This document shows positions 20,836-47,001 of a stretch of DNA of 64,000 bases, in pieces (the first letter of the stretch is position 1; each line of letters opens with the position of its first letter). Under the pieces are notes generated by a model. That model was not told where the DNA came from, searched no databases, and saw only the letters and a program-made list of their open reading frames with translations. The stretch lies in the NCBI RefSeq assembly GCF_028369105.1, contig NZ_JAQNDO010000001.1, forward strand, positions 310,001 through 374,000, written 5' to 3'. Origin of the DNA: Polyangium mundeleinium (GTDB lineage Bacteria > Myxococcota_A > Polyangia > Polyangiales > Polyangiaceae). The position numbers and the translations under genes were made by a program.

Positions 20836-21894
20836 ATGACGCGATGGTCCATCGTTGTGCTCGGGGTGCTTGGGGTATCGGCGTGCCGGGAGGAGAATCC
20901 GTTGGAGGTGCAACATATTTCTTCCGCGGATGAAGCGTGGTATGGTGTGGGGTTTGGCCTGCAAGGGGAGGTCGTGGTCTTCGACGGGAAGACCGGGGCC
21001 GTGACGAGCTCGGCCGAAGGGGGCGGAGGGACGCCGCGCGACGTGGCGGTCGATCCGGACGCCTCACGATTGTGGGTGCTCGAAGAAAATGAGGATGCGT
21101 CGGGCGGCGAGATCCGTGTGTGTCCGCTCGACGAGGGCGCCGTGGGGGCGTGCGCGCACGCGGCGTGGGTGGATGGAGGAGCCGCGCTTTTCGCGACGGA
21201 CGGGGGGCTGTGGGTGTTCGAGCAAGGGGCGTACGGGCCTCGGTGGAAGGTGCTGCGGGAAGGCACGATCGCAAAAGGGGTCTACGCGCCGCGGCCCGCT
21301 TCGGTGTGGAGGGAGGGGGACCGGATGGAGGTGCTTTCGTACGGCGTGAACGAGGACCGATTGACGCGGATGTCGGGGACGCTGACGGAAAACGGGTTGG
21401 TCGTGACGACGGGCCTCGACCTCGGGGCGCCGGCGCTCCAGCCGCCGACAGCGCGATTCGTTCCGCTGTCGGCCGAATCCGGGCTGCTTTGGGACGTGGT
21501 GGGAGGTGATATTGCCGCGCGGAAGGTGGGCGCGCAGAGTGCGGAGGCCGCCGTGATGCTCGGGGTCGGGCCGGGAATCGAGAGGATCGAAGCGGCGGCG
21601 GTGCTCGGCGGGGCGGCGCTCGTGCTGTCGACGAATACATTGTGGGTCGTGGAGCTCGGGCAGGAAAACGGGGGTCTCGGCGTGACCGCGATCGCGCTTG
21701 GGGGGGAGGTTCGTCGGGCTGGTACGTTTTTCTCGCGAGACCTGGCCACGGCCGGGGACCGGGCGCTCGTCGCGACCGACCAGGGCGTGCGCGCCATCGT
21801 GGTGGAAAAGGATGGCGGGCCTGTTTTCCTCGACGAACGGTTCGAGGGCAGCTCCCTGCGAGGTCCGCTTTGGGTCGTGCGCGCTGCGAATTGA
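20836..21894 (+). CDS. hypothetical lipoprotein, beta-propeller-like
   Basis: A 352-residue protein with a short lipoprotein signal (MTRWSIVVLGVLGVSAC). The rest is beta-rich with repeated blade-like elements: GEVVVFDGKTGAVTSSAEG, PRDVAVDPDASRLWVLEE, GGAALFATDGGLWVFEQG, ALVLSTNTLWVVELG, RALVATDQGVRAIVVEKDGG. Such V-x-D-x-x-G-x-L-W-V patterns suggest a beta-propeller, but no named family is recognised. It starts 53 bp after the GYF-like gene on the same strand. GGGG lies just before the ATG. Cell-surface or periplasmic location is inferred from the signal. Confidence 0.65.
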   Translation: MTRWSIVVLGVLGVSACREENPLEVQHISSADEAWYGVGFGLQGEVVVFDGKTGAVTSSAEGGGGTPRDVAVDPDASRLWVLEENEDASGGEIRVCPLDEGAVGACAHAAWVDGGAALFATDGGLWVFEQGAYGPRWKVLREGTIAKGVYAPRPASVWREGDRMEVLSYGVNEDRLTRMSGTLTENGLVVTTGLDLGAPALQPPTARFVPLSAESGLLWDVVGGDIAARKVGAQSAEAAVMLGVGPGIERIEAAAVLGGAALVLSTNTLWVVELGQENGGLGVTAIALGGEVRRAGTFFSRDLATAGDRALVATDQGVRAIVVEKDGGPVFLDERFEGSSLRGPLWVVRAAN

Positions 21895-21965
21895 CGCGCC
21901 GCGTGCCACCAAGATGTCACGAAAAACGGAGTGCGGTTCGGGGGGAAAACCTGTACATTCGAGCC

Positions 21966-23675
21966 GTGGCCTCCTCCCGAACCTTCATCCTTTGGGCTTT
22001 TGGGTTGGTCTCGGTCGTGGGTTGCTCGGACGAGCCGGTGCTCACGCCGAGCAACCCCCTTCCGGTGGACGTCGACGAGGGCAATGGAGGCAGCGGCGGC
22101 GACGCCGGGTCGGGTGGCGTCGGCGGCGTCGGCGGGACAGGCGGCGCAGGGGGAATGGGCGGCGTCGGGGGAATGGGCGGCGCGGGCGGAACAGGGGGCG
22201 TGGGCGGCGCGGGCGGCAGCGGCGGCGACGGGGTCCCGGTCGAAACCGATTGCATGGCCGACCTGGGTACGCCCGAGGTGTCCAAGGTGGGGATGCCCGG
22301 AAAGCTGCGGCTCATCGGGTGTGTGGTCACCCCGGACAAGGCATTCGCGGGCGAGGTGCTCATCGAGAGCGATACGCTGACGTGCGTGGGCCCGTCGTGC
22401 GAGAACGCGCCGGGCGCCGCGGAGGCGACGGTCGTCAAGACGCACGGGGTCATCCTGCCGGGGATGATCGATACGCACAACCACATCCTGTTCGATATCT
22501 TCGACGAGTCGGACTGGAGCCCCTCGAAGGCGTACGGCAACCACAACCAGTGGCCGAACGAGCCGCGTTACCAGGCGATGGTCGACGCGAAGCAATACAT
22601 GAACGGCGAGGGGACGCCGAACCTCGACCCGGGCTTCGGCTGCGAGATGAACAAGTACGGCGAGATGAAGGGTCTCGTCGCCGGGACGACGAGCATCGCC
22701 GGCGCGGCGAACCCGATTGACAAGACGTGTTATGGGTCGCTCGCCCGGACGATCGATCAGAAGGCGAACGACCTCGGCGCGGACAAGGTGCAGGTCTCGA
22801 CGTTGTTCCCGCCGTCGAGCGGCGATACGGTCTGCAGCAACTTCCTCGTCGACAAGACGGACGCGTACGTCATTCATTGCGGCGAGGGCGTGGACGAGAC
22901 GGCGAAAAAAGAATTCACGACGCTCGGGACGGCGACGAACCCGGATGGCTGCCTGTACGCGGCAGAGACGACGATCGTCCACGGGACGGCGTTCGGGGCC
23001 GACGAATTCGGGGTGATGGCGGACAAGGGCATGAGCCTCGTGTGGTCGCCGCGCTCGAACGTGTTCCTGTACGGCGGCGGGACGGACTTCACGAAAACGA
23101 CGAACGTGCCGATGGCCTTGTCGCTGGGCATCAACGTGGCGCTGGCGCCGGATTGGTCGCTCGGGGGCAGCCAGAACCTGCTCGACGAGCTGCGCTTCGC
23201 CAACAGGGTCGACAACGAGGCCTTCGGCGACGTGCTGTCGCCGGCCATGCTGGTCCGCATGGTGACGGTGAATGCGGCGAAGGCGCTGGGGCTCTCGGAT
23301 GTGCTCGGGTCGCTCGAGGTCGGGAAAAAGGCGGACGTGACGGTGATCACGGGGGATGCGAGCGTGCCATTTGATACGGTGCTCGCGGCGCGGCCGAAGG
23401 ACGTTTCGCTTGTTGTGGTGAATGGGGTGCCGCTTTATGGAGACGCCGTGCTCGCGGCGCTTGGGCCGCAAGCGCCGGGCTGCGAGGCGCTCGATATCTG
23501 CGGGGCCGCGAAATTCGCGTGTGTGGCCGAGACGGGCGGCACGACGGCGAACAAGTTCGGGCAGACGTGGGCCGACATTACGCAGATCCTGTCGTCGGAG
23601 CTCAAGACGTACGACGATATGAACCTGACGCAGTGGGATTTCGCGCCGCTCGCGCCGCTCGTGAAATGCGAATGA
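21966..23675 (+). CDS. amidohydrolase family lipoprotein with N-terminal Gly-rich spacer
   Basis: A 569-residue protein. The GTG at 21966 gives a lipoprotein signal (VASSRTFILWAFGLVSVVGC). A Gly-rich tract of about 50 residues then works as a spacer from the membrane. The amidohydrolase domain follows: LPGMIDTHNHILFD with the HxH metal motif, IVHGTAF with a further His, LALAPDWSLGGSQNLLDEL with the metal-binding Asp, and the terminal LEVGKKADVTVITGDA typical of the superfamily. It would hydrolyse a C-N bond of an unknown substrate outside the inner membrane. It is a single gene with a convergent methyltransferase gene 4 bp after its stop. Confidence 0.8.
   Translation: MASSRTFILWAFGLVSVVGCSDEPVLTPSNPLPVDVDEGNGGSGGDAGSGGVGGVGGTGGAGGMGGVGGMGGAGGTGGVGGAGGSGGDGVPVETDCMADLGTPEVSKVGMPGKLRLIGCVVTPDKAFAGEVLIESDTLTCVGPSCENAPGAAEATVVKTHGVILPGMIDTHNHILFDIFDESDWSPSKAYGNHNQWPNEPRYQAMVDAKQYMNGEGTPNLDPGFGCEMNKYGEMKGLVAGTTSIAGAANPIDKTCYGSLARTIDQKANDLGADKVQVSTLFPPSSGDTVCSNFLVDKTDAYVIHCGEGVDETAKKEFTTLGTATNPDGCLYAAETTIVHGTAFGADEFGVMADKGMSLVWSPRSNVFLYGGGTDFTKTTNVPMALSLGINVALAPDWSLGGSQNLLDELRFANRVDNEAFGDVLSPAMLVRMVTVNAAKALGLSDVLGSLEVGKKADVTVITGDASVPFDTVLAARPKDVSLVVVNGVPLYGDAVLAALGPQAPGCEALDICGAAKFACVAETGGTTANKFGQTWADITQILSSELKTYDDMNLTQWDFAPLAPLVKCE
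22086..22231 (+). repeat. Gly-Gly-X coding tandem tract
   Basis: About 16 imperfect GGNGGCNNN units in frame encode a Gly-rich linker between the lipid anchor and the amidohydrolase domain. Such tracts can slip in length between strains. Confidence 0.85.
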
Positions 23676-23679
23676 TCGC

Positions 23680-24276
23680 TCAGGCCGTCTTGCGAAAGAC
23701 GAGCGAGTGATTGTTGGCGGGCATGGGGACGGTCTCCTCGTGCACGAAGCCGGATTGACGTGCGAGGCGCTGGAGGTCGTCGAGGTCGCGCACGCCCCAG
23801 GACGGGTCCCTTTCCCGTAACGAGGCGTCGAAGGCCTCGTTGCTCGGCGCCGTGAAGGAGCCCGAGAATCGATAAGGGCCGTACGTGAAGAGCACGCCGC
23901 CCGCGGGGAGGATGCGCGCGGCGCCGCGGAAGAGGCCCTCGCACGCGCGGAAGGGGGCGATGTGGATCATGTTGATGCAGACGATGGCGTCGGCGCGAGA
24001 GACGGGCCAGGTGTCCTCGGAGGCGTCGAGCCGGAGCGGGCGGAGGAAATTCGGGAGATCGAGCTCAGCGCGGTACGCTTCGATGCTGATGAGCGCGTCG
24101 GAGTCGGGGTCGGTCGGCTGGAACGTGACGCTGGGGAGGTGCGCCGCGAAGTGGGCCGTGTGCTGACCCGAGCCACTCGCGATTTCGAGGGCAAAGGCGC
24201 CGTCCGGGAGGACACGTCGGAGGATGTCCAGGATGGGATCGCGATTTCTCTCGGCTGCAGGGGCGCGTCGCTTCAT
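23680..24276 (-). CDS. DUF938 domain SAM-dependent methyltransferase
   Basis: A 198-residue protein. The ATG at 24276 has GGAGG six bases upstream. It shows the DUF938 set: AAERNRDPILDILRRVLP, the SAM-binding motif ALEIASGSGQHTAHFA, LPSVTFQPTDPD, AIVCINMIHIAPFRACEGLF and FTYGPYRFSGSFT, ending NNHSLVFRKT. DUF938 proteins are class I methyltransferases of unknown substrate. Its start region is divergent from the lipoprotein gene at 24323, with TATCCT at 24295-24300 in between. Confidence 0.88.
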   Translation of the reverse strand: MKRRAPAAERNRDPILDILRRVLPDGAFALEIASGSGQHTAHFAAHLPSVTFQPTDPDSDALISIEAYRAELDLPNFLRPLRLDASEDTWPVSRADAIVCINMIHIAPFRACEGLFRGAARILPAGGVLFTYGPYRFSGSFTAPSNEAFDASLRERDPSWGVRDLDDLQRLARQSGFVHEETVPMPANNHSLVFRKTA

Positions 24277-35973: not shown

Positions 35974-37197
35974 ATGATCGAATTTGCTTTGAGCAAGAAG
36001 CAACACGAGCTGAAAGAGGCGCTCCAATCGCTCGGACGTCACGTGATCCGGCCGATGAGCCTCGACATGGATCGCAACAAGGAGGTGCCGGAGTCGTTCC
36101 TGCGCAACTTCATGATGATGTCGAGGGGCTTCCGCTCGGACGACATCGCGGAGTTCTCGGAAGGCACGCCGCGCAAGGAGCGAGATCCGAGCAAGCCCTC
36201 CGAGGCGAACCGCACGGCGGTGATCGCGGCCGAGGAGCTCGCGTGGGCAGACGCGGCGATTCCGCTCAGCATGCCGGGGCCGGGGCTCGGCGCGCCGCCG
36301 GTGCGCGCGACGGGGACGCCGGAGCAGAAGAAGCGGTTCCTCGGGATGTTCCGCGACATGGATACGGGCCCGCTCAAGTGGGGCGCGTACGGGCTGACGG
36401 AGCCGGGCGCGGGCAGCGATGTGGCGGGCATCCGCACGAGCTGTCGCAAGGACGGCGCGCACTGGGTGCTGAACGGGCGCAAGTGTTACATCACGAACGG
36501 CGGCCGCGCGGTGTGGACCGTCATCTTCGCGACCGTGGATCCTTCGCTCGGGCGCGCGGGGCATCGCGCGTTCGTGGTGGAGAAGGGGACGCCCGGGTTC
36601 GAGGTCGGCAAGATCGAGGACAAGATGGGGCTGCGCGCGAACGAGACGGCGGAGCTCGTGCTCGAGGATTGTCGCGTGCCGGAGGAGAACCTGCTCGGCG
36701 GCGAGGAGGCGTATCGATCGAAGGAGGGCTTCATGACGGCGATGAAGACCTTCGACAACACGCGCCCGCTCGTCGCAGCGATGGCCGTGGGCATCGGGCG
36801 CGCGGCGTACGAGTACGCGCGCGACTTCGTGAAGCAGAACTACGTGCTCGGCCGGCCGATCCCGAGGTACGCGGCGATCGCAGAGAAGCTTGCGAAGATC
36901 GGGCGACGTCTGGAGGCGGCGCGGCTGCTCGTGCACCGCGCGACATACCTCGCGGACATGAACATCCCGAACGCGAAGGAGGCGAGCATGTCGAAGGCCG
37001 CGGCGGGGCAGGCCGCGACGCTCGCGTGCATCGACGCGATCGAGATCTGCGGCGCGCACGGGACGCTCCAGGCAGAGCACGCGCTGCTCGAGAAGTGGTT
37101 CCGCGACATCAAGGTCTACGACATCTTCGAGGGCACCGGGAACATCCAGCGCGTGGTCATCTCGAAGCGGATCGTGTCGAACCTGAAGTCATTTTGA
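35974..37197 (+). CDS. acyl-CoA dehydrogenase
   Basis: A 407-residue enzyme of the same family as its neighbour but more canonical. Features include YGLTEPGAGSDVAGIRTSC (FAD-binding signature), WVLNGRKCYITNGG, and the C-terminal KWFRDIKVYDIFEGTGNIQR, with the catalytic-region Glu in YDIFEGTG. This resembles medium/short-chain dehydrogenases. It lies 22 bp after the first gene, so the two are likely co-transcribed and may form a heteromer or act on different substrates. It converges on the RiPP exporter gene with 42 bp between stops. The electron acceptor (ETF) genes are not in the window. Confidence 0.92.
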   Translation: MIEFALSKKQHELKEALQSLGRHVIRPMSLDMDRNKEVPESFLRNFMMMSRGFRSDDIAEFSEGTPRKERDPSKPSEANRTAVIAAEELAWADAAIPLSMPGPGLGAPPVRATGTPEQKKRFLGMFRDMDTGPLKWGAYGLTEPGAGSDVAGIRTSCRKDGAHWVLNGRKCYITNGGRAVWTVIFATVDPSLGRAGHRAFVVEKGTPGFEVGKIEDKMGLRANETAELVLEDCRVPEENLLGGEEAYRSKEGFMTAMKTFDNTRPLVAAMAVGIGRAAYEYARDFVKQNYVLGRPIPRYAAIAEKLAKIGRRLEAARLLVHRATYLADMNIPNAKEASMSKAAAGQAATLACIDAIEICGAHGTLQAEHALLEKWFRDIKVYDIFEGTGNIQRVVISKRIVSNLKSF

Positions 37198-37239
37198 CAT
37201 CAAACGAAGCGGGCTCGGCCTCGGGGGGCTCGATCCGGC

Positions 37240-39351
37240 TCAGCGCATCCGGGTGACGCGTCCGCCGCGGACCTCGTAGACGATGTCGGCGACCGAGACG
37301 AGGTGCGAACGATGCGCGACGACGATGCGCGTCGGGGCCAGGTTGGCGAGGACGGCCGCGATGCGCGTCTCGTTGTCGGCATCGAGGTTCGCGGTGCCCT
37401 CGTCGAAGAGGATGATCTTCGGCTGGCGGTAGAGGGCGCGCGCGATGAGGATCCGCTGCCGCTGGCCCCCCGAGATCTGCGCGCCCATGTCCCCGACGAG
37501 CGTGCCGTACTCCATCGGCATCGCCTCGATTTCCTCGGCGATCGAGGCATCGCGGGCCGCCGCGCGGACCCGGTCCATGTCGATCGTCGCGTCGAAGAAG
37601 GCGATGTTCTCGGCGATCGAGCCGGCGAGGAGCGTGTCATCCTGCATGACGGTCCCGAACCGCTCGCGCCAGCCGTGCCGGTGGACGTCGCGGATCGAGG
37701 CGTCGTCGAGGAACACGTCGCCCTCGCTCGGCGTCTCGATGCCGAGGATGATCTTGATGAGCGTGGACTTCCCGCTCCCGGACGGCCCCACGATCGCCAC
37801 GCACGCGCCGGCCGGGACCTCCAGGGAGACGTCGTCGAGCACCAGCGGCTCCGTCGCCGCGTACCGGAAGCGGACGTTCTTCAGCGACAGCGCGCCCGCG
37901 CCGTCGACCGGCATGTCGCGTCCGCCCACGGGCTCCGCTTCGGCGAGCATGAGGTCGTCGAGCCGACGCAGGTGGACGCTGACGAGCTGCAGGGAGGACA
38001 GGTTCTCGGTGAGCGTGCCGAACCGCTCACGGAACACGCCGCGGTACGCGAGGAAGCCGAAGAGGGTGCCGAGGGGCACGGGATCGGCGCCCACGCCGAG
38101 CACTCCGATTCCGAGGACGAGCACCCATTCGACGGCCCCGATGGTCGAGGCGGCCGATTCCACGCCGGTGTGCAGGCGGCTCAGGCGCATGTTGGCGTTG
38201 AGGACACGGACGAGGTCGTTCTCCCACAACGCGAACCGCTGGGCCTCCCGCCCCGCGAGCTTGATGGCTTGCACTGCGCGGATCGATTCGAGGAGGCGGG
38301 CGAGCTCTTTTCCTTCGGCGTGCAAGAGCTCGTCGGAGAGCTCCCGTTGCCGCGGCAGCGCCGCGAACCGCATCGTGGTCTCGACGGCGAGCCCGAGGAT
38401 CACGATCGCCGCGAGCTTGGGGCTGAATCGGATCATCAGCGCGGCGGTCACCACGCTGACCGCGAGGTCGATGAGCAGGGGAATCGCCCGATCGGTGACG
38501 AAGCGCCGGATCGCGTCGACTGATCGGACGCGCGCCAGCACGTCGCCGAGGATCTGACGCTGGAAGAAGGACACCGGGAGCGAGAAGAGACGCCCGACGA
38601 TGTGCGCGGAGACGCGGTGGACGAAGAGATTGCCGAACCGCGTGACCAGCACCCCGCGTGTCCACGACGCGCCTGCTTGCACGACGATCATCAATGCAAT
38701 GCCCGCGACGATCGCCAGCATGGCCGGGTCGGACGTGCCCGCCGCGGGGTGACGGTCGATCAGGGACCGGTATGCGAAAGGCAGGGAGACGATGGATACC
38801 TGGAGCAGGACCGTGAGCCACAAGGCTCGAAGCGCGACTGATCGCAGGTGCGGATCGTCGAACCACGCCCGCCGGAAGCTCCGCGAGAGCGCGAGGGGCT
38901 CGCGGGAGAACGCTTTCGTCGGCGTGAGCTCGACCGCGATTCCGGTGAAGGAGGGAGATACCGCGTCGATTTTCATGCGCACGCGGCCACGCGCAGGGTC
39001 CACGATCCACGCGACGTCTCCCGCGAGTTTCTCCAGGACCACGAAATGGTCCATGTTCCAGTGGAGAATGGCGGGCGTCTTCAGATCACCGAGGCGGTGA
39101 AGGCCGATGCGCACGGGGCGCGCCGCGAGGCCAAGCGCCCCCGCGAGGCTCATCAGCATGCGCAGGCTGAGTCCGCGCGGCGTGGTGGTGAGCTTCGCGC
39201 GAAGCGCCGCGAGGTCGGCCTCGAGCCCCCAGGACGAGGCGACCATGGCGAGGCACGCGAGCCCGCACTCGCTGGGCTCTCCTTGCAGAATGATGGGGAC
39301 GGCTCGCGCAGGGCGAGGGGGCGAGGCTTCGTTGTCGGCGACGCTGGCCAT
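37240..39351 (-). CDS. peptidase-containing ABC transporter (C39, double-glycine exporter)
   Basis: A 703-residue PCAT that trims a Gly-Gly leader and exports the core peptide. The N-terminal C39 peptidase has oxyanion Gln23, nucleophile Cys29 (QGEPSECGLACLAMV), His102 (HWNMDHFVVLEK) and Asp118 (IVDPARG), all intact. A six-helix membrane domain covers about residues 165-440. The ATPase has Walker A GPSGSGKSTLIK, signature ISGGQRQR, Walker B IILFDEGTA and AHRSHL. The Asp-Glu-Gly in Walker B replaces the more usual Asp-Glu-Ala. It is the last gene of the operon carrying the Gly-Gly precursor at 42103, its likely substrate. Confidence 0.92.
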   Translation of the reverse strand: MASVADNEASPPRPARAVPIILQGEPSECGLACLAMVASSWGLEADLAALRAKLTTTPRGLSLRMLMSLAGALGLAARPVRIGLHRLGDLKTPAILHWNMDHFVVLEKLAGDVAWIVDPARGRVRMKIDAVSPSFTGIAVELTPTKAFSREPLALSRSFRRAWFDDPHLRSVALRALWLTVLLQVSIVSLPFAYRSLIDRHPAAGTSDPAMLAIVAGIALMIVVQAGASWTRGVLVTRFGNLFVHRVSAHIVGRLFSLPVSFFQRQILGDVLARVRSVDAIRRFVTDRAIPLLIDLAVSVVTAALMIRFSPKLAAIVILGLAVETTMRFAALPRQRELSDELLHAEGKELARLLESIRAVQAIKLAGREAQRFALWENDLVRVLNANMRLSRLHTGVESAASTIGAVEWVLVLGIGVLGVGADPVPLGTLFGFLAYRGVFRERFGTLTENLSSLQLVSVHLRRLDDLMLAEAEPVGGRDMPVDGAGALSLKNVRFRYAATEPLVLDDVSLEVPAGACVAIVGPSGSGKSTLIKIILGIETPSEGDVFLDDASIRDVHRHGWRERFGTVMQDDTLLAGSIAENIAFFDATIDMDRVRAAARDASIAEEIEAMPMEYGTLVGDMGAQISGGQRQRILIARALYRQPKIILFDEGTANLDADNETRIAAVLANLAPTRIVVAHRSHLVSVADIVYEVRGGRVTRMR

Positions 39352-39355
39352 GGGC

Positions 39356-39574
39356 TCAGCGGGCTCCCAGATACAAGGCGACGAGGCCGGCCGCCGCCAG
39401 CAACGTCAGGACGGCGAGAATCGCGTGCTCGGCGAGCAATCGGCCTTCCCACGGCTCACCGGCTCCACGTGTGGCGTGCGCAGCCACTGCCTCCGGGCGG
39501 TAGAGTCGATGATTGTCCCGCCGGTTGCTCTTGCCGCCTTTTTCCTGGCTCTCGCTCGCCTTGCTTTCGCTCAT
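39356..39574 (-). CDS. small single-TM protein of the peptide cluster
   Basis: A 72-residue protein. The first half is hydrophilic (MSESKASESQEKGGKSNRRD) and one membrane segment near the end reads HAILAVLTLLAAAGLVALYL, closing with GAR. The ATG overlaps the stop of the HExxH gene (ATGA, 39571-39574) and its own stop is 4 bp before the PCAT start, so it is firmly inside the operon. It is too short to be a full HlyD-type adaptor. It may be a transporter subunit, an immunity peptide or a membrane tether for the enzymes. No family is recognised. Confidence 0.7.
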   Translation of the reverse strand: MSESKASESQEKGGKSNRRDNHRLYRPEAVAAHATRGAGEPWEGRLLAEHAILAVLTLLAAAGLVALYLGAR

Positions 39575-40737
39575 TGTCGCGCTGCGGAATCGACCGCGTT
39601 GCACACGCCCCGCCAGAACCGCTGGCCGGCCTCCGTGAGGGTCTTGCTCTGGTCGAGGGCGGGCCGGTAATCCTCGTCGAACCAGCGCTGGTGGACGCTG
39701 AATCGATCCTGCGAGGCGGCGTCGAGCCCGGTCGTCCGGCGGAGCGCGTGGTAGTAAACGATCATGTTTCCCACTGCGTGCGCCCCGGAGAGGACCCGCT
39801 CGATCGGCCGGTGCGCCCGCTTGATCGGAGAGTAGTACACTTCGTCGCTCCCTGTCTGCACGAACGGAGCGACCATCGAGTAGAGCAGCATGTGCTGGTG
39901 GGCGCACTCATGGACGAGGAGCTCGCCGCAGAACGCCGCGTCGTCGGGCGTTTCGATCGCAATGAGCCCGGGATGATCGTAGGAGCTGCCGGATTGGGCC
40001 TCGTGGCTGCCGCTCCGGTCGAGGAGCAAGCACCCCGCGGCCGTGCTCGCGACCCAGGGCGCGAAGAGGGGCGCGCTCTCCAGCAAGAGCCGCCAGGCGG
40101 CGCGAATGACGTCGATGCGCTCCTGCGGCGCGGTCACGGTCGCGGGCGGGGCGGGCGGAGGGCCTTCAATCCAGGGGAATCCCTCGACGGAATGGCGCAG
40201 CCCGCTGACCGTGACGTACCGCGGCGCGAGACCGCCGCTCGGAAAAACCCTCCACGGGCCTCCCGGCGCCTCGGCCGGGAGGAGGTTTTTCTCCGGCGAG
40301 AGGACGTACGTCGCATGGCCCAGATCCGAATGAACCGTCGTCTTGTTTTCCCCCGCCGCGAGGCGGCACGCCCCTTGGATGGGTTCGAGCCACCCGTCGA
40401 GGTAAAGCCATTGCGGCGTGTCGATTTCGATCTCCACGACGCCCGACCCGCCCATGCCGCCGTGCAGTGCGGCGAGCTGGAGCGCGGCGAGCGCGGGGGC
40501 GTCGTTTCGCAGGGCGAGCAGGGCCAAACCCATTTCGGGGCGCCATGCGCTGCCTCGGCCCGGGGTGAACGCGACGAGGGCGCGGGCGGGTTCGTCCTTT
40601 CCCGCCCGCGTCAATACGTCCGCCACCCGGCGGCGCGTCGCATGGAGGCGACCTGCCGCGAGCGAGCGCACGGCGCCGACGGCGTCGCCGTGGACGGGCG
40701 ACGCGAAGATGTCCGCGTGGGAGGAGATGTCTGCCAT
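39571..40737 (-). CDS. HExxH-motif peptide-modification enzyme
   Basis: A 388-residue protein. A helical N-terminal half precedes the metal motif His276-Glu-Cys-Ala-His280, in LLVHECAHQHMLLYSMVAPF. A further His in RVLSGAHAVGN (about residue 320) may be the third ligand. This layout fits the HExxH-motif family found beside or fused to FxsB-type radical SAM maturases; some members are reported as 2-oxoglutarate-dependent peptide beta-hydroxylases rather than proteases. It starts 13 bp after the radical SAM stop and overlaps the next gene by 4 bp. Which residue of the precursor it modifies is unknown. Confidence 0.75.
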   Translation of the reverse strand: MADISSHADIFASPVHGDAVGAVRSLAAGRLHATRRRVADVLTRAGKDEPARALVAFTPGRGSAWRPEMGLALLALRNDAPALAALQLAALHGGMGGSGVVEIEIDTPQWLYLDGWLEPIQGACRLAAGENKTTVHSDLGHATYVLSPEKNLLPAEAPGGPWRVFPSGGLAPRYVTVSGLRHSVEGFPWIEGPPPAPPATVTAPQERIDVIRAAWRLLLESAPLFAPWVASTAAGCLLLDRSGSHEAQSGSSYDHPGLIAIETPDDAAFCGELLVHECAHQHMLLYSMVAPFVQTGSDEVYYSPIKRAHRPIERVLSGAHAVGNMIVYYHALRRTTGLDAASQDRFSVHQRWFDEDYRPALDQSKTLTEAGQRFWRGVCNAVDSAARQ

Positions 40738-40750
40738 GGGTTTGTCCGGC

Positions 40751-41998
40751 TCAGCGTGGAGGGGACGCCTGTTGCCCGTTCTCCGGGACGCCCCCCGGGT
40801 CGGGGGCGGGCGCGGGGTCGATCGCGGCGATCCTGTTCGTGATCTCGGAGAGGGGAATCCCGTTCCGGACCAGGAATGCGGCGATCTCCGCGTAGATGTC
40901 TTGCAGCCCCTTGCAATACAGCGATTTGTTGTCGAACCGGAGGGCCTTGGAGAAACGATTGATCGGTCGCCCCGCCTTGCAGATGTTCCACCATCCGCAC
41001 GCCTTGCACCCTTCCGGTCGTTTCAGCGACGCCTCGGCCTGCTCGCGCCATGCATCCGATTCGACGAGGTCTTCGAGGCCGTGGGTCGCGATGTTGAGGC
41101 CCATGGAGGCGAAGCGCGGATCGACGACGCGCAGCGTATCCTCGGGGGCCAGGTCGCCGTTCGACGAGACGGAGATGATGTTTCGATAGTCGTCGCGATA
41201 CGTCCGGAGGAGGTCCATGGCTTGCGCGCTCACCATCGCGGACAGGAGCTCCGAGAAGACGCGGATGTGGACCTTGGGGTTCTTGTCGCGCAGCCACGCG
41301 CGGCAGGCCGAGAGCAAATATCGCTCGACGCCGCGGACGATCTCCTCGTTCACGCCCGAATCCCACGTGTAATCCGGGGTCAAAAAGCTCATGTCGGTCA
41401 CGCCCAGGGTGTGGACGAAGTGACGGTACACAGCGCCGCCGTCGGCCCCGGGGTTGATCACCGCGAGGAGCCCGGGCGCGCTGAGCCTTTTTTGCGCCGC
41501 GGCCTCCTGGAGCAGGCGTAGCCCCGCGACCGTGCGGTCATACGAGCCGCGGTCCTTGAGGTCGAGCCGGTGCTTGTCGTTCACGGCGGGCGGCCCGTCG
41601 AGCGATACGCCCACGGAGATTTGATACTTCTCGAAGATATCGATCCACTCGTCGCGGACGAGGACCCCGTTCGTTTGCAGGCCGAAGTCGAAGCGGAATC
41701 CTTCCTCGTGCTTGCGGAGCCTCTCGCACATGTCCGCGAACCGGGCGCGTGGCATCAGCAGCGGCTCGCCGCCGTGAAAGATGAGCGTCACCCGCTCGAT
41801 GCCGTACGTCTTCGCCGCTCGCGCCGAGAACGCCCCGAGAGAGTCGACGACCTCCGGCGACACGAGCGGAGGATGTTTCTTCCAACTGTCGTCGCCGGCG
41901 AAAAAGAAATAGCAATAATCGCATTTGAGATTGCAGCGCTCGCTTACCTTGAATACGATGTTCAGATACTCGGCGGTTCGACGGATGTCCTGAAGCAT
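40751..41998 (-). CDS. radical SAM/SPASM peptide maturase, cyclophane-forming type
   Basis: A 415-residue enzyme. The radical SAM cluster motif is Cys22-x3-Cys26-x2-Cys29 (ERCNLKCDYCYFFFAG), followed by the GGEP motif (FHGGEPLLMP), LQTNGVLV and VSLDGPPAVND. The C-terminal SPASM-like region has Cys331, Cys334, Cys340 and Cys362 (CKACGWWNICKAGRPINRFS, SLYCKGLQDIY). The CxxC-x5-C and DNxSxYC spacing is that of the FxsB/XyeB/GrrM group, which joins aromatic side chains to a neighbouring beta-carbon, making three-residue cyclophanes. The gene follows the precursor gene with a stem-loop between them. The exact subfamily cannot be fixed without alignment. Confidence 0.87.
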   Translation of the reverse strand: MLQDIRRTAEYLNIVFKVSERCNLKCDYCYFFFAGDDSWKKHPPLVSPEVVDSLGAFSARAAKTYGIERVTLIFHGGEPLLMPRARFADMCERLRKHEEGFRFDFGLQTNGVLVRDEWIDIFEKYQISVGVSLDGPPAVNDKHRLDLKDRGSYDRTVAGLRLLQEAAAQKRLSAPGLLAVINPGADGGAVYRHFVHTLGVTDMSFLTPDYTWDSGVNEEIVRGVERYLLSACRAWLRDKNPKVHIRVFSELLSAMVSAQAMDLLRTYRDDYRNIISVSSNGDLAPEDTLRVVDPRFASMGLNIATHGLEDLVESDAWREQAEASLKRPEGCKACGWWNICKAGRPINRFSKALRFDNKSLYCKGLQDIYAEIAAFLVRNGIPLSEITNRIAAIDPAPAPDPGGVPENGQQASPPR

Positions 41999-42045
41999 CT
42001 CGCGCTGATTCCTTTCGTATCCAAGGCCCGCGTTCGAGCCACCGA

Positions 42046-42073
42046 GCGCGGCCTCTTTATAAGGAGGCCGCGC
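42046..42073 (-). terminator. stem-loop between precursor and maturase genes (attenuator)
   Basis: A perfect 10-bp stem, GCGCGGCCTC (42046-42055) with GAGGCCGCGC (42064-42073), and an 8-base loop. It has no U-run, so it is more likely a partial terminator or an mRNA-stabilising 3' hairpin. It sits 29 bp after the precursor stop and 47 bp before the maturase start, where it could raise the precursor-to-enzyme ratio. Confidence 0.6.
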
Positions 42074-42102
42074 CCGGCGGACTCACTCCACGTGGTGGAG
42101 GC

Positions 42103-42255
42103 TTACTTCTGCTGCTGCTTGAACTGGACGTGCAGGCTGAAGCCGCCGCCCGTGACCTCGTCGATGTGGGCCTCGATGAGGTCCTCGGCACCTTCGAAGT
42201 CCATGCTGTCCTCGTCGGCGAGGCGATCCTGGATCTGCTTCTCGATGTCGTTCAT
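42103..42255 (-). CDS. double-glycine RiPP precursor peptide
   Basis: A 50-residue peptide. The ATG at 42255 is preceded by AGGAGA at 42262-42267 with 6-base spacing. The leader (MNDIEKQIQDRLADEDSM...) is acidic and helical and ends with a double-glycine site: AEDLIEAHIDEVTGGG, with hydrophobics at the spacing C39 peptidases read. The core after Gly38 is FSLHVQFKQQQK, with aromatic residues at Phe39, His42 and Phe45, every third residue. That spacing matches the ring-x-x motif of three-residue cyclophanes. It is first in the operon with the maturase, HExxH enzyme and C39 exporter. No homologue is recognised. Confidence 0.8.
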   Translation of the reverse strand: MNDIEKQIQDRLADEDSMDFEGAEDLIEAHIDEVTGGGFSLHVQFKQQQK

Positions 42256-42275
42256 GGTTTTTCTCCTGCTCGTGA

Positions 42276-42296
42276 ATTGCTCCGGTGAGGAGCAAT
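42276..42296 (-). promoter_or_regulatory. 5' leader hairpin of the precursor transcript
   Basis: A perfect 8-bp inverted repeat, ATTGCTCC/GGAGCAAT, with a 5-base loop, ends 8 bases upstream of the precursor's ribosome binding site. If the promoter at 42302-42330 is used, the hairpin forms the very 5' end of the mRNA. It could stabilise the transcript, or serve as an operator in DNA form. Confidence 0.5.
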
Positions 42297-42301
42297 ACTC
42301 A

Positions 42302-42330
42302 GATTTATCAATCTCCGTGTCGTCCCACAA
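42302..42330 (-). promoter_or_regulatory. candidate promoter of the peptide operon
   Basis: On the minus strand TTGTGG (42325-42330), a 17-base spacer and TAAATC (42302-42307). The match is moderate. The surrounding 294-bp intergenic region (42256-42549) is richer in A/T than the window and also holds TAGAAT at 42385-42390 on the plus strand, a possible -10 for the divergent ABC operon. No regulator gene lies in or beside the cluster. Confidence 0.35.
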
Positions 42331-42549
42331 GCACATTCGTTGACGTGTCGTCTTCGGAGAAGGCCGAGATGCGGTTGCGTGTTGTAGAATTCAATTGGTG
42401 GTGCAACAGAATGCTCGGAGCGGCCCGCGTCGGCGCTGTTTTGCGTTTTTTGTGCGGAGCGATGAAATTTCTGGGTGGCGTAAGACGAAGTCTCGTACCA
42501 TCGGCCCCTTCCGCGGGCGCGTCCGCTACGGCCGGAAGAGGTTCCGTTG

Positions 42550-43284
42550 ATGGATCCCCTGATCCAGATCGAGTCGATCACGAAGGTGTACTGGATGGGG
42601 CAGATCGAGGTGCACGCGCTCCGCAATGTCTCGCTGGAGATCCGGAAGGGCGAGATGGTCGCCATCATGGGCGCCTCCGGGTCGGGGAAGTCGACGATGC
42701 TCAACGTCATCGGGACCCTCGACCGGCCGACGGAGGGGCGATATCGTCTCGATGGAGAGGATGTGGGGGCGCTCGACGAGGTCGAACTCGCGCACCTCCG
42801 AAACCGCAAGATCGGGTTCGTTTTCCAGTCGTTCAACCTCCTGCCCCGGGACTCCGCCCTCCAGAACGTGGAGCTGCCGATGATCTATTCGGGTATCCGC
42901 CCGTCGGAACGCCGAGCACGTGCGCGGCGCGCGCTCGTGCGCGTCGGCCTCGCCGAGCGTATCGATCATCTGCCGAACCAGCTCTCCGGCGGCCAGCAAC
43001 AACGCGTCGCCATTGCCCGCGCGATCGTCAATGAGCCCTTGCTCCTGCTCGCAGACGAGCCCACGGGGGCGCTCGACTCCGCCACGACGGTGCAGGTGAT
43101 GGGCCTCTTTCGCGAGCTCCACGCCCAGGGAATGACCGTGGTCGTCGTGACCCACGACGAGGCCATCGCCGCTTATGCGGATCGGGTCATCACCTTCAAG
43201 GACGGGGCCTTGGTCTCGGACGCGTCGAAGTTTGTCGCGGCCAGCCCAGGGGCCGCCGCAGCCGCGCAGGGAGCCACAGCATGA
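42550..43284 (+). CDS. ABC transporter ATP-binding protein (MacB/LolD type)
   Basis: A 244-residue ATPase: IQIESITKVYWMGQIEVHAL, Walker A GASGSGKSTMLN, Q-loop FVFQSFNLLP, signature LSGGQQQR, Walker B LLLADEPTGALDS and H-loop VVVVTHDEA. This matches the MacB/LolD group, which work with FtsX-like permeases. The ATG at 42550 is preferred over the adjoining TTG; GAGG lies eight bases upstream. It heads a four-gene operon with each start overlapping the previous stop, divergent from the RiPP precursor. It probably energises export of, or immunity to, the peptide; that link is inferred from position. Confidence 0.92.
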   Translation: MDPLIQIESITKVYWMGQIEVHALRNVSLEIRKGEMVAIMGASGSGKSTMLNVIGTLDRPTEGRYRLDGEDVGALDEVELAHLRNRKIGFVFQSFNLLPRDSALQNVELPMIYSGIRPSERRARARRALVRVGLAERIDHLPNQLSGGQQQRVAIARAIVNEPLLLLADEPTGALDSATTVQVMGLFRELHAQGMTVVVVTHDEAIAAYADRVITFKDGALVSDASKFVAASPGAAAAAQGATA

Positions 43285-44399
43285 GCGCGAAGCGGAAGCG
43301 GCGGTGGCCGTGGCTGCTCGCGCTCATCGTGATCGTCGCGCTCGGCGTCGTGATTTCGCAGCGCGGCGGCGCGGGAGCGGCTCCGCTCGACCCCGCGCTC
43401 GTCGTGACGGCGAAACGCTCGGAGTTGGTCCTCGAGGTGGTCGAGACGGGGAAGGTGGAGGCGCGCAACAAGGTCGAGCTCAAATCGAAGGTCCCGGGCC
43501 AGGTGGCCGAGGTCCTCGTGGACGAAGGCGCGCAGGTGAAAAAAGGAGACCTGCTCGTCGTCCTCGATCCGACGGATTATCAACGCGAGCTCGCCCGCGC
43601 CGAAGCCGAGCTCGCGAACGCGCAGGCGTCGGTAGCTTATGCCAAACTCGTCCTCGGCCGGAAAACCGCGGGTGTCGAGGGGGCCGTCGTCCCCGCGCAC
43701 GAGCTCGATGCGGCCCGGCACGACCTGGCCACGAAGGACATCTCCGTGCGGCAGGCGCGCGTCGCGGTGGACATCGCCCGGGATCGCCTTCGATACACGA
43801 AGATCGTCGCGCCGATGGCCGGCACGGTGATCCAGCGCGGAATCGAGCCGGGCGAGGTCGTCACGCCCGGCGTGCAAGCCACCTTCAATGGCGAGGCGCT
43901 GCTCGTCGTGGCGGACCTCTCGACGCTGGTCGTCAAAATCGAGGTGAATCAGATCGACGTGGCGAAGGTCCAGCTCGGGCAGGCCGCGACCCTGACGCTC
44001 GACGCGCTCCCCGGGAAAACCTACGAGGCGCGCGTGACGAAGATCGCGCCGGCGTCGACGCGCCCGCAGGGCAGGGACGTGGACGTGTTCCCGATCGAGG
44101 CCGAGCTCACCGCGGCTGACGCGCAAATCAAGCCGGGGATGTCCGCCGACGTGCGGATTCGTCTCGACGTACGCCGCGACGTCCTCACGCTGCCGATCGA
44201 GGCGGTCCGGGAGAGCGGCGGCAAGGCGCGCGTCACGCGCGTCCACGACGGCCCCGAGGGCCGACAAACGACGGAGGAGGTCGAGGTCGTCCTCGGCGCG
44301 CGCACCGATCGTGAGGTCGAGGTGGTGCGTGGGCTCGAGGAGGGGAACCGCGTTCTGCTCGAACCGGGGTCTGCCGCCGCAAACGAGACGCAGATGTGA
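43281..44399 (+). CDS. efflux periplasmic adaptor (MacA/HlyD-like)
   Basis: A 372-residue membrane-fusion protein. One N-terminal membrane segment (RWPWLLALIVIVALGVVISQ) precedes a lipoyl/barrel-sandwich half (ELKSKVPGQVAEVLVDEGAQ), a helical hairpin (LARAEAELANAQASVAYAKL), the second lipoyl half (RLRYTKIVAPMAGTVIQRGI) and beta-barrel parts. MacA-type adaptors join an inner-membrane MacB pump to an outer-membrane TolC channel. The start overlaps the ATPase gene (ATGA). The helical hairpin is compact compared with HlyD. No outer-membrane channel gene is in the cluster, so a TolC from elsewhere would be needed. Confidence 0.9.
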   Translation: MSAKRKRRWPWLLALIVIVALGVVISQRGGAGAAPLDPALVVTAKRSELVLEVVETGKVEARNKVELKSKVPGQVAEVLVDEGAQVKKGDLLVVLDPTDYQRELARAEAELANAQASVAYAKLVLGRKTAGVEGAVVPAHELDAARHDLATKDISVRQARVAVDIARDRLRYTKIVAPMAGTVIQRGIEPGEVVTPGVQATFNGEALLVVADLSTLVVKIEVNQIDVAKVQLGQAATLTLDALPGKTYEARVTKIAPASTRPQGRDVDVFPIEAELTAADAQIKPGMSADVRIRLDVRRDVLTLPIEAVRESGGKARVTRVHDGPEGRQTTEEVEVVLGARTDREVEVVRGLEEGNRVLLEPGSAAANETQM

Positions 44400-45622
44400 T
44401 GTGGACGAGTCACCTCGTGATCGCCGCCAAGGCGCTCGTGGCGCACAAGCTCCGCTCGCTCCTGACGGTCACGAGCATCATGATCGGCGCGTTCGCCATC
44501 GTCCTCATGTCGTCGCTCGCCGAGAGCGGGCTCCAGACGCTCAGCCGCGGCATCGAGGAGATCGGCGGCGCTCGGCTGCTCCTCTTCGTGCCCAAGGTGC
44601 CGGAGCGCGCCGCGCGCAAGCAGGGCATGTACACGCTCGGCTTCGAGCTGCGCGACAAGGCGCGCTACTTCGATCGGGTCCCGCACGTCGTCGAGACGGC
44701 GATGTACGCGTCGCTGGGCACGAAGGACATCCTCTCGGCGAAGGGGAAGCAGGAGCGCACGTCCCTCGTCGCCAGCGACGAAAGCTTCTTCGCGGCCTAC
44801 GGGATGCGCATCGGTCGAGGGCGCGCGTTCACCGAGGAGGAGAACAAGCGCCACGCGCGGGTCTGCGTCGTCGGCCACAAGCTCGCGGAAAAACTCTGGG
44901 ACGGTGATCCGCTCGGGCAAAACGTCACCATCGGCGTGCTGCGGTGCCGGGTCGTCGGCGTCCTCGCGAACAACGAGCGGTTCGGCGTCGGGTTCGGGTT
45001 CGATTGGGTCGACTTGCTCATCGCGCCGCTCGAGACCGTGGCGGAGCTCTTGCCGCGCACGCGGTTCGAAACGACGGTCGTCGCGAAGACCGACGACGCG
45101 ACGCAGAACGACGCGGTCAAGCGCATCGTCAACGCGCGCCTCGTCTCGCGCCATCGCGGCGTCGACGATTTCACGATCTACGACTTCAGCTCGATCATGG
45201 GGAAGTTCGAGATGATCTTCCTGATCATGGAGGCCGTCGTCGGCCTGATCGCCGGCGTCGCGCTCCTGATCGGCGGGATTGGCGTGATGAACATGATGCT
45301 CGTGAGCGTCTCGGAGCGCGTGCGCGAGATCGGGATCCGCAAGGCCCTCGGCGCGACGCCGCGCGACATCGGCGCGCAGTTCCTCGTCGAGGCCATGCTT
45401 CTCTCCGGCTTCGGGGGTCTGCTCGGCACGGCCGCAGGCGCGCTCGTCGCGCTGGTCGCGGCGCCGCTGATCGCATCGGCCATCCCGACCTGGGTCGGCT
45501 CCGTCTCGACCGGCGCGGCCACGGCCGCGCTGCTCGTTTCACTCGGCCTTGGTGTGGGTTTCGGCTGGTTGCCGGCGCGCCGCGCGGGCGGCCTCGATCC
45601 TGTCGTGGCGATGCGGCGATGA
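44399..45622 (+). CDS. MacB-like ABC permease, first of two
   Basis: A 407-residue FtsX-superfamily permease: a first membrane helix (LLTVTSIMIGAFAIVLMSSL), a large periplasmic MacB_PCD domain at about residues 45-270, then three helices with the permease signature (MNMMLVSVSERVREIGIRKA, LGATPRDIGAQFLVEAMLLS) and an ending ARRAGGLDPVVAMRR. The ATPase is separate (42550). The ATG at 44399 overlaps the adaptor stop (TGATG); a GTG one codon earlier is possible. The periplasmic domain contains several Lys/Arg-rich stretches. Together with the next gene it likely forms a heterodimeric pump. Confidence 0.9.
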   Translation: MWTSHLVIAAKALVAHKLRSLLTVTSIMIGAFAIVLMSSLAESGLQTLSRGIEEIGGARLLLFVPKVPERAARKQGMYTLGFELRDKARYFDRVPHVVETAMYASLGTKDILSAKGKQERTSLVASDESFFAAYGMRIGRGRAFTEEENKRHARVCVVGHKLAEKLWDGDPLGQNVTIGVLRCRVVGVLANNERFGVGFGFDWVDLLIAPLETVAELLPRTRFETTVVAKTDDATQNDAVKRIVNARLVSRHRGVDDFTIYDFSSIMGKFEMIFLIMEAVVGLIAGVALLIGGIGVMNMMLVSVSERVREIGIRKALGATPRDIGAQFLVEAMLLSGFGGLLGTAAGALVALVAAPLIASAIPTWVGSVSTGAATAALLVSLGLGVGFGWLPARRAGGLDPVVAMRR

Positions 45623-46869
45623 GGTTCTTCGATCTGCTCCGATCCGTGCGGTTCGTCGTCGGCGGGCGGCTGCGCGCCCTGCTCACGCTGCTCGGCGTGA
45701 TGATCGGATCAGGCTCCATCGTGGTCCTCGCCTCGCTCCTTCGAAGCGGGGAAGAAGCGCTGCTGCGCGCCAGCCAGGAGGCCACCGAGAGCGACCTCGT
45801 CCAGGTGCGTCGCGAAGAAGCGAACGCGCGAGACCGCAAGCGCACGCGGCGTGAGCTGTCACGTGACGATGCCCGCGCGCTCCGCGCGTCCGGCGGCATC
45901 CGCGGCTTCGAGGCGCAGAGCGAATCGACGAAGCGAACGGAGGCACACGCAGGCGACAAGAAGACGAGCATCACGCTCGTCAGCGCCACGCCAACCGCGC
46001 GTTCGCTCTATCGCCTCGAGCTCGCGCGAGGTCGTTTCTTCGTCGACGCGGACCTCGAACGTCGCGCGAGGGTGTGCATCCTCGGTCATGAGGTCTGGCA
46101 GAAGCTCTTCGGCGATCGGGGCTTCGCTGCGTTCGAAGCCGACGATCTCCCTCGGATCCTCGTCGAGGGGCACGCGTGGACGGTGATCGGCGTGCTCGTG
46201 AATCGTCCGATCTTCGGCTCGACGGACAGCACCGACATCTGGAACCGAAAGGTGCTCGTCCCCGAGACGACCTACGACGCGATCCTCTCGCCGAACCACG
46301 CCGTGAACCGCATCTACGTGCGACGAACGGACACGGCCGAGGTGACGACGCCGCTCTCCACGCTGCGGAGCATCGTCTCGTCGACGCTCCTGCGCAGGCA
46401 CCTCGGCGTGAAGAACTTCAAGGTCGAGGACGACGAGAGCAGCAGTCAGGATCGGCTCATCCTGAGCGTGGTGGAGCTCTTGCTCCTGAGCACGAGCCTC
46501 ATGGCTCTGCTCGTCGGCGGCATCAACATCATGAACATCATGCTCGTGACCGTGACGGAACGGACCCGCGAGATCGGCATCCGCCGCGCCGTCGGCGCTC
46601 CACGCCGCGCCATCCTGGCCCAGTTCCTCCTCGAGGCTGCGGCCGTCTCCTCGGTCGGCGGCGCGTTCGGCGTGCTCGGAGGCGTCGGCGTCTCGTGGCT
46701 CTTGGCCCAGGTGATGACGCAGGTGGTGGGCCCTTGGGACCACCACGTCGAGCCCTGGTCCATCGGCCTGGGCCTCGGCCTCGCGCTGGTAACGGGCGTG
46801 ATCTTCGGCTTCTACCCAGCCTGGCGCGCAGCGCGGCTCGACCCCATCGAGGCGCTCCGCACCGAGTAG
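45619..46869 (+). CDS. MacB-like ABC permease, second of two
   Basis: A 416-residue paralogue of the preceding permease with the same architecture: first helix (LLTLLGVMIGSGSIVVLASL), periplasmic domain, then MNIMLVTVTERTREIGIRRA, VGAPRRAILAQFLLEAAAVS and a final ARLDPIEALRTE. Its start overlaps the previous stop (ATGA, 45619-45622). Two different FtsX-type permeases with one ATPase and one adaptor suggest an asymmetric LolCDE- or MacB-like assembly rather than the MacB homodimer. It is the last gene of the operon; tRNA genes follow on the opposite strand. Confidence 0.9.
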   Translation: MRFFDLLRSVRFVVGGRLRALLTLLGVMIGSGSIVVLASLLRSGEEALLRASQEATESDLVQVRREEANARDRKRTRRELSRDDARALRASGGIRGFEAQSESTKRTEAHAGDKKTSITLVSATPTARSLYRLELARGRFFVDADLERRARVCILGHEVWQKLFGDRGFAAFEADDLPRILVEGHAWTVIGVLVNRPIFGSTDSTDIWNRKVLVPETTYDAILSPNHAVNRIYVRRTDTAEVTTPLSTLRSIVSSTLLRRHLGVKNFKVEDDESSSQDRLILSVVELLLLSTSLMALLVGGINIMNIMLVTVTERTREIGIRRAVGAPRRAILAQFLLEAAAVSSVGGAFGVLGGVGVSWLLAQVMTQVVGPWDHHVEPWSIGLGLGLALVTGVIFGFYPAWRAARLDPIEALRTE

Positions 46870-46911
46870 GCGCGGCGTGCGTCCGGACGCATCATCGAGC
46901 GCGATCTTGAT

Positions 46912-47001
<90 letters not shown>

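Follow-up and report, generated by a model that had tools for sequence, protein, structure and literature searches.

A probable xenorceptide-like peptide cluster of Polyangium mundeleinium with a predicted standalone hydroxylase and a neighbouring MacAB-type pump

A cluster for a ribosomally synthesized and post-translationally modified peptide (RiPP) was analyzed in Polyangium mundeleinium, and it is probably of the xenorceptide-like (triceptide) kind, supplemented by a putative hydroxylase and altered in its export route. The stretch studied, hereafter the window, comprises 64,000 nt of NZ_JAQNDO010000001.1 (positions 310,001-374,000 of the forward strand), and coordinates below are those of the window unless marked otherwise. 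Five minus-strand genes at 37240-42255 encode a precursor peptide, a radical S-adenosylmethionine (rSAM) maturase, an HExxH protein, a 72-aa protein with one transmembrane (TM) segment and a C39-peptidase ATP-binding cassette (ABC) exporter, and a divergent MacAB-type operon lies in the same genomic island. The parts are known and their combination is new, which makes the cluster a variant of the triceptide/xenorceptide type. Hydroxylated-triceptide chemistry is a strong inference from these genes, and two-step export of the product is put forward as a new hypothesis. The first-pass annotation had described the five genes as a compact cyclophane-type operon with a second tailoring enzyme; this observation was confirmed as a whole and its interpretation is supported overall. 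The genes are not chance frames, as indicated by strong family matches of the three large proteins and by the presence of the orthologous genes in another species of this genus.

The precursor gene (42103..42255, minus strand) encodes the 50-residue Gly-Gly peptide first read there, MNDIEKQIQDRLADEDSMDFEGAEDLIEAHIDEVTGG followed by GFSLHVQFKQQQK, with Gly-Gly at 36-37 and the predicted core at 38-50. The predicted core GFSLHVQFKQQQK (42106..42144, minus strand) is preceded by VTGG and consists of three contiguous aromatic-x-x units (F39-S-L, H42-V-Q and F45-K-Q) followed by Q48, Q49 and K50, so that both the Gly-Gly leader and the aromatic-x-x core of triceptide (XyeA) precursors are found. 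No NCBIfam family matched either the precursor or the 72-aa protein at E 1. The genes had been said to be separated by 4-13 bp or by ATGA overlaps, which holds for the last three junctions (13 bp between maturase and HExxH genes, a 4-bp overlap between the HExxH and TM protein genes, and 4 bp before the exporter gene), whereas the gap between precursor and maturase is 104 bp. This gap contains an intercistronic hairpin (42035..42085, minus strand) with a 17-bp GC-rich stem, an 8-nt loop and four further pairs; the minimum free energy is -65.3 kcal/mol over 121 nt (z -6.28), and none of 200 shuffles was equally stable. The hairpin is absent from the terminator list for the operon strand and probably stabilises or attenuates the transcript.

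The maturase (40751..41998, minus strand, 415 aa) is a XyeB-like radical SAM/SPASM protein, judging from NCBIfam matches, phylogeny and cysteines. The motif C22-x3-C26-x2-C29 reported earlier is present, as are the SPASM cysteines C331-x2-C334-x5-C340 and C362, the Pfam SPASM model itself scoring below its cut-off (15.9 vs 21.5). The top three NCBIfam models, XyeB (TIGR04496; 327.4 bits, E 9.6e-98), YhhB (257) and FxsB (230), all represent cyclophane-forming families, and the curated cut-off was reached by none. In the rSAM tree the protein falls within a 20-row XyeB clade that includes XyeB of Xenorhabdus and Photorhabdus (support 98/94; inner order weak), its sister group being a HlyD-type Paracoccus pair (support 95/81), and among solved structures the ChlB radical SAM domain 9gm3 comes nearest in sequence (E 2e-40). 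These features point to a three-residue-cyclophane maturase, as had been suggested. A hidden Markov model search had been proposed as the check, with grouping among unrelated rSAM families as the outcome that would speak against the assignment; no such grouping occurred, and a wrong-family rSAM is ruled out by the NCBIfam matches and the XyeB-clade placement. A second, distant cyclophane-type rSAM (31% identity) with an 84-aa candidate precursor is encoded elsewhere in the same genome (G000:C1:4102211-4103293; L036 7158-8300).

The second enzyme (39571..40737, minus strand, 388 aa) is a standalone protein of the alpha-ketoglutarate (aKG)-HExxH type. It matched TIGR04267 ('aKG-HExxH-type peptide beta-hydroxylase') at 76.6 bits, above the cut-off of 40, and its HECAH motif at 276-280 carries the H276 and H280 noted in the first reading; H276, E277 and H280 are invariant (15/15 aligned). 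By sequence, the closest solved relative is 22nu (E 1.6e-10), which has the same sequence as 22ob, titled SjiH-Ni. The AlphaFold2 model, with a predicted local distance difference test score (pLDDT) mostly of 64-96 from residue 203 and <50 for residues 56-202, aligns lengthwise with the ChlB HExxH domain 8s5f (Z 22.0, 294 residues) and with SjiH 22ob (Z 21.0, 307); the next structure scores Z 7.7, and rows 3-50 are background. Both score and modelled fold place the protein among the aKG-HExxH peptide beta-hydroxylases, and its activity is predicted accordingly, in line with the hydroxylation proposed at the outset.

The exporter (37240..39351, minus strand, 703 aa) matches Pfam Peptidase_C39 (4e-31), ABC_membrane and ABC_tran, and its C39 triad (C29/H102/D118) is intact, as previously noted. 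It therefore has the triad, TM and ATPase domains of a peptidase-containing ABC transporter (PCAT), with the best NCBIfam model, TIGR03796, below its cut-off (417 vs 853 bits). Clusters of the triceptide (XyeA) type combine the C39 exporter with a full-length HlyD protein; here the HlyD position is occupied by the 72-aa protein (39356..39574, minus strand). This putative HlyD-like stub has a tail with a YRPEAV motif, and hydropathy places a hydrophobic segment at 51-69; the protein ends three residues past that segment, with no periplasmic lipoyl, alpha-hairpin or barrel domains. Its sequence weakly resembles the N-terminal part of a HlyD protein truncated just behind the TM helix. HlyD-type adaptors link inner-membrane exporters with an outer-membrane channel. 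Because the stub lacks the periplasmic domains, it would be unable to form such a bridge, and the adjacent MacAB system may perform a second step or protect the producer. The partners of PCATs are periplasmic adaptors and outer-membrane factors (PMC8277102; partial text, as for all PMC-numbered papers cited here). A pseudogene reading of the 72-aa protein was ruled out by a dN/dS (ratio of non-synonymous to synonymous rates) of 0.11 against the congener G148 and by like frames open in five sister clusters.

The locus had been taken to end at 42255, and this was not borne out, given that a divergent MacAB-type operon at 42547-46869 shares the island. Its plus-strand genes encode a MacB/DarD/LolD-type ABC ATPase divergent from the precursor (42547..43284; PRK10535 MacB 281 bits and, as second-best NCBIfam match, DarD 238 bits; ABC_tran 2e-35), a MacA-type membrane fusion protein of 372 aa (43281..44399; TIGR01730 RND_mfp 181 bits, cut-off 94.9; HlyD_D23 1e-22) and two MacB/FtsX-type permeases. 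Permease 1 (44396..45622) matches MacB_PCD (5e-32) and FtsX (3e-19), and permease 2 (45619..46869; 416 codons from ATG 45619) has a MacB_PCD match at window 45679-46344 (G000:C1:355679-356344). The MacA-like fusion protein, MacB_PCD/FtsX permease and ATPase of a MacAB-type pump are thus all found, with the MacA, MacB and Dar equivalog cut-offs unreached. Matches to MacB_PCD are scarce, with 8 in the whole genome of 13.25 Mb, 2 of which fall in the island.

The nine-gene, 9.7-kb island (37205..46913) is missing at the same site in three congeners, G149, G150 and G151, where its flanks adjoin each other: in blastn comparisons similarity on the left side ends at 37204-37206 and sets in again on the right side at 46910-46916, and 56-160 bp separate the two. 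The comparison shows one insertion or deletion. The right boundary is the 3' end of a tRNA-Ser(GGA) gene (46914..47001, minus strand); a tRNA-integrase island was considered and rejected, as there is no exact repeat of at least 12 bp in 36801-37600 and no integrase among the listed island genes. The maturase had no match at 1e-40 in G149-G152, and MacA had none at 1e-60 in G149, G150 and G152, all of which are without the cluster; a flank marker was not found in G152 at 1e-180, and the site in that genome was thus not located. In G148, by contrast with these congeners, an ortholog island is 96.1% identical over 19.9 kb, and its five cluster proteins are 95.8-100% identical, the precursor protein being unchanged (one synonymous and no non-synonymous nucleotide differences). 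Between G000, the genome of the window, and G148, dN/dS was 0.10 for the rSAM, 0.12 for the HExxH protein, 0.11 for the 72-aa protein, 0.12 for the C39 ABC exporter, 0.27 for the ATPase, 0.05 for MacA and 0.04 for permease 1, compared with 0.09 for a flanking acyl-CoA dehydrogenase; the range of 0.04-0.27 covers seven island genes, without permease 2. These values and the unchanged precursor show that the ortholog cluster is under purifying selection. In G151 a 54% MacA homolog occurs beside a very large gene (2734 aa) that by eye is like one for a nonribosomal peptide synthetase (NRPS). This site (G151:C230 ~10074-23967, L145) also has an ATPase gene next to the MacA homolog and another long frame, a context that hints at a role of the pump lineage in exporting natural products.

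Related clusters were collected by a contig scan with a XyeB-type alignment, from which the best 80 of 478 confirmed candidates were kept, and by further searches across the order (183 genomes), the phylum (377) and the Luteibacter order (250). Six clusters combine a XyeB-clade rSAM, a standalone HExxH protein and a C39 ABC exporter: that of the window, L049 and L131 (two clusters in the genome of Luteibacter anthropi), L135 (G667), L136 (G713) and L054 (a verrucomicrobial metagenome-assembled genome). L031, the ortholog of the window cluster, was counted as the same event. HExxH similarity led to L131, L135 and L136, stub and pump playing no part in their choice. The HExxH-family protein of L131 has no TIGR04267 match at E 0.001, and its relation to P0003 is seen by blast alone. 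The gene order of L049 equals that of the window, and its precursor ends in GGGYSQWSASHNKDPATTQPTQQ; the precursors of L135 and L054 have His at every fourth residue (AHGSAHGSAHAS and AHLDIHNSAHQS). The leader of the window precursor resembles that of L049, equalled by 2 in 1000 shuffles, and that of L135, equalled by none, with a weaker likeness to the XyeA of the Xenorhabdus bovienii cluster L044 (22), L054 (48), L136 (115) and L131 (380). Ala-Ala or Ser-Ala stands at the expected Gly-Gly site in the sister precursors at L135 5013-5198 and L054 7612-7800.

All six clusters have a short TM protein in place of HlyD and a MacB-type permease nearby. The stub follows the enzymes in each, the C39 ABC gene of L054 being divergent, and measures 72 aa in the window, 85 in L136 (an internal start chosen in a 102-aa frame), 133 in L049, 147 in L054 (an internal start in a 173-aa frame), 157 in L135 and 164 in L131, with one strong hydrophobic segment each according to a simple hydropathy window. 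The permeases were located by blast, by Pfam MacB_PCD positions in five genomes and by a MacB profile leaving out the tested locus. With a full-length HlyD profile (E 1e-5), the sole match in the HExxH loci was the MacA of the window's ortholog (1e-6). In XyeB clusters with C39 that lack HExxH, a HlyD-like adaptor was found in 9/9 (393-439 aa where the frame is clean; that of L050 lies within a 906-aa frame) and a MacB permease in 0/9 of the flanks examined, the same MacB profile serving for both groups. The flanks were mostly 8 kb (5 kb for L042-L044, with L044 viewed over 15 kb as annotation, and 1.3 kb upstream for L048), and the short loci L040 and L041 and the other rSAM loci L059-L127 were excluded from the count. 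A one-sided Fisher test gave 2e-4, ignoring shared ancestry; L043, L055 and L056, XyeB-clade loci in which no HExxH of this family, C39, HlyD or MacB permease was seen, were left out of it. In the rSAM tree the combined stub/MacB/HExxH state changes at least twice, and the chance of a MacB_PCD match within 21 kb was 0.013 in this genome, 0.036-0.071 in three others and 0.28 in the verrucomicrobial one. Regarding the origin of the stubs, sequence supports derivation from HlyD well in three cases, makes it likely in two and does not support it in one: when N-termini of full-length HlyD proteins served as the profile, none of 1000 TM-preserving shuffles was as good for L054, L135 and L136, and 10 were for L049. 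The AlphaFold2 model of the L054 stub (pLDDT 51.6), in which strands and no long helix after the TM segment are drawn, was too weak and was not used.

Other arrangements of such genes were also seen. Standalone HExxH genes occur beside other rSAMs of this broad type, e.g., in Rhodococcus sp. DMU1 and Rhizobium lusitanum, and the rSAM-HExxH pair alone is therefore not unique. In G502 (L137) the pair lies outside the XyeB clade, with no C39 match in the examined stretch. L040 and L043 have a XyeB-like rSAM beside a long HExxH protein (469 and 524 aa) unmatched by the HExxH profile, whereas three HExxH-profile matches surround one cyclophane-type rSAM in Sphingomonas pituitosa (L059 5784-10330). 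Two Polyangiales loci (L032 6868-9385 in G084 and L033 6979-9986 in G121) represent a different HExxH-rich RiPP type, in which the gene for a Gly-Gly precursor of 72-74 aa with a repeated LPGGGS element lies between two standalone HExxH genes, L032 additionally having an rSAM and a C39 ABC. In Luteibacter anthropi, a 311-aa protein (L131 7108-8043), a prolyl-4-hydroxylase-type oxygenase by eye, is encoded beside the second HExxH-rSAM-stub-C39 cluster of that genome.

In the mechanism proposed here, the 50-aa precursor would be made in excess of the enzymes, aided by the hairpin after its gene. The XyeB-like enzyme, judging from its family, would link one or more of the aromatic residues F39, H42 and F45 with the beta carbon at position +2 from each, leaving one to three three-residue cyclophanes on the core. 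The standalone aKG-HExxH enzyme would then act as an Fe/2-oxoglutarate oxygenase that beta-hydroxylates core residues, the best candidate sites by analogy being the Gln run Q47-Q49, as with PflC/PosC, or His42, as with ChlB-type enzymes. Enzymes of this family have been shown to act on His, Asp, Phe, Gln and Pro (PMC13060819), and the hydroxylation of consecutive Gln residues by PflC/PosC (PMC12636437) would fit the FKQQQK tail. The C39 domain, judging from the PCAT family, would cut after Gly36-Gly37, and the core would be freed by the exporter into the periplasm, because the HlyD partner of the exporter appears to be reduced to a membrane anchor unable to reach an outer-membrane channel. The neighbouring pump could take up the periplasmic peptide and pass it through a TolC-like channel for export, self-protection or both, as its linkage suggests. 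As a tentative generalization, which we consider possible and short of probable, in cyclophane RiPPs of Gram-negative bacteria the arrival of an aKG-HExxH enzyme beside a XyeB-type maturase would go with a HlyD adaptor shortened to 72-164 aa from ~400, and MacAB would take over a second step from the periplasm, by which the peptide leaves or is kept off the producer's own outer-membrane target.

Several points weigh against this account. The maturase scores below the XyeB cut-off (327.4 vs 450 bits), so that the position and number of cyclophanes are not fixed by family, and Leu and Gln are not among the partner residues described in the available text of PMC11002830, where XncB links Trp/Phe to Asn/Arg and other three-residue-cyclophane enzymes act on His and Tyr. 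When the window stub was compared with HlyD N-termini, 15 of 1000 TM-preserving shuffles were as good with the full-length profile and 25 with the leave-one-out profile, and for the stub of L131, whose HlyD origin is unsupported, the numbers were 272 and 174. MacB-type permeases are common, particularly in the verrucomicrobial genome (62 matches). Outside the window and its ortholog, no MacA was seen in the sister loci, and a MacB-like ATPase in L136 alone. Darobactin production does not need the exporter DarBCD (PMC9055067). The stub/MacAB rule, set down beforehand, yielded no new cluster in 233 Luteibacter-family and 337 verrucomicrobial-phylum genomes and hence rests on the original loci.

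The weak HlyD likeness of the window stub and the dispensability of darBCD, together with the occurrence of MacB-type permeases in 13/14 control genomes, favor an alternative with the same chemistry, in which MacAB is an unrelated drug-efflux operon sharing the island, the C39 exporter works in one step via an adaptor encoded elsewhere, and the 72-aa protein is no more than an ABC accessory or chaperone. This alternative is regarded as somewhat unlikely, considering that MacA lacks a match at E 1e-60 in the cluster-less congeners G149, G150 and G152, that both parts lie in one stretch missing from three congeners, and that stub and MacB permease coincide in 6/6 clusters with HExxH, compared with HlyD without MacB in 9/9 C39 clusters lacking it. 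It is improbable that the HExxH protein is instead a peptidase acting on precursor or product: HExxH is a zincin motif, and PflC, of the same broad family, hydrolyses a leaderless substrate (PMC12636437), but the cluster already has a C39 protease, and a plain protease is rejected by the TIGR04267 score and by the gap between Z 21-22 for the ChlB oxygenase domain and SjiH and Z 7.7 for the next structure. Equally improbable is oxidative backbone cleavage or C-terminal trimming in the QQQK tail to give a shorter, C-terminally amidated product; PflC/PosC do cleave oxidatively beside a Gln run, and the core ends in QQQK, but PosC cut at Ala and partly at Gly, not at Gln, Ser or Val, in the available text of PMC12636437, and both Ala and Gly are absent from the tail. 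A decaying or silent cluster, to which patchy presence in the genus and the lack of a promoter-like match in a scan for sigma-70-type sites only might point, is very improbable in view of intact frames in two species, the low dN/dS of seven genes and the unchanged precursor.

The xenorceptide-like cluster with hydroxylase and rewired export can be compared with several known systems. The XyeA-XyeB cluster of Xenorhabdus bovienii (L044) shares the short Gly-Gly precursor, aromatic-x-x core, XyeB-clade rSAM and C39 ABC exporter with the window, but it has no HExxH protein, carries a full-length HlyD of 406 aa right before the C39 ABC, and shows no MacB-type gene annotated within 15 kb; in the window HExxH is present, HlyD is replaced by the 72-aa stub and MacAB is added. 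ChlB (8s5f, 9gm3) likewise unites a cyclophane rSAM and an aKG-HExxH hydroxylase on one peptide, whereas no such fusion occurs here, the two separate genes lying 13 bp apart, with a XyeB-clade maturase and C39 and MacAB export. The fused ChlB protein was reportedly described by Morishita et al. (2024). SjiH (22nu/22ob) is the closest solved HExxH relative by sequence and stands level with ChlB by fold (Z 21.0); no paper on it was found in the open-licence literature. PflC/PosC, PesO and BpmH/BipH are also standalone aKG-HExxH enzymes of RiPP clusters, but their partners are multinuclear non-heme iron-dependent oxidative enzymes (MNIO) or B12-dependent rSAMs instead of a XyeB-type maturase in the available text of PMC12636437, PMC13060819 and PMC12707348. 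The darobactin cluster encodes the C-C crosslinking rSAM DarE beside DarBCD, an ABC-type exporter with a membrane fusion protein, and is similar to the window in this pairing; as described in the available text of PMC9055067 (DarA, DarE and DarBCD), it has no C39 exporter, HExxH protein or HlyD stub and forms another crosslink. A further close arrangement is L049 of Luteibacter anthropi, which has the same order of precursor, rSAM, HExxH, short TM protein and C39 ABC genes and two MacB permeases upstream, but differs in its core (GYSQWSASHNKDPATTQPTQQ), in its 133-aa stub, in enzymes 26% (HExxH) to 39% (rSAM) identical and in a flank where no MacA or MacB ATPase was seen. Initially, the cluster had not been matched to a described product. 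This holds for the full combination, since no described cluster with a XyeB-type rSAM, standalone HExxH protein, truncated HlyD, C39 and MacAB was found in the open-licence literature, outside which the main triceptide papers (Morishita 2024, Sugiyama 2022) lie; however, pairs of rSAM and standalone HExxH and XyeA/XyeB/C39 operons are known.

The compact gene set of this soil bacterium seems to close a short peptide into rings, to oxidise and free it, and to export it by two pumps in an unusual arrangement, and it extends a known family of peptide antibiotics directed at the outer membrane. BamA, which is blocked by xenorceptides and darobactins, is a sought-after target in pathogens of the Gram-negative type (PMC12971899), and a hydroxylated relative would widen the chemical space of this BamA-blocking group. 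With cyclophane formation and hydroxylation placed on separate proteins, the cluster offers a defined two-enzyme system for studying residue choice by aKG-HExxH enzymes and the order of action, and the His-based cores AHGSAHGSAHAS and AHLDIHNSAHQS of two sister clusters are ready targets for genome mining. The stub/MacAB pattern also raises the testable question of whether a C39 exporter may hand its peptide to a MacAB pump through the periplasm.

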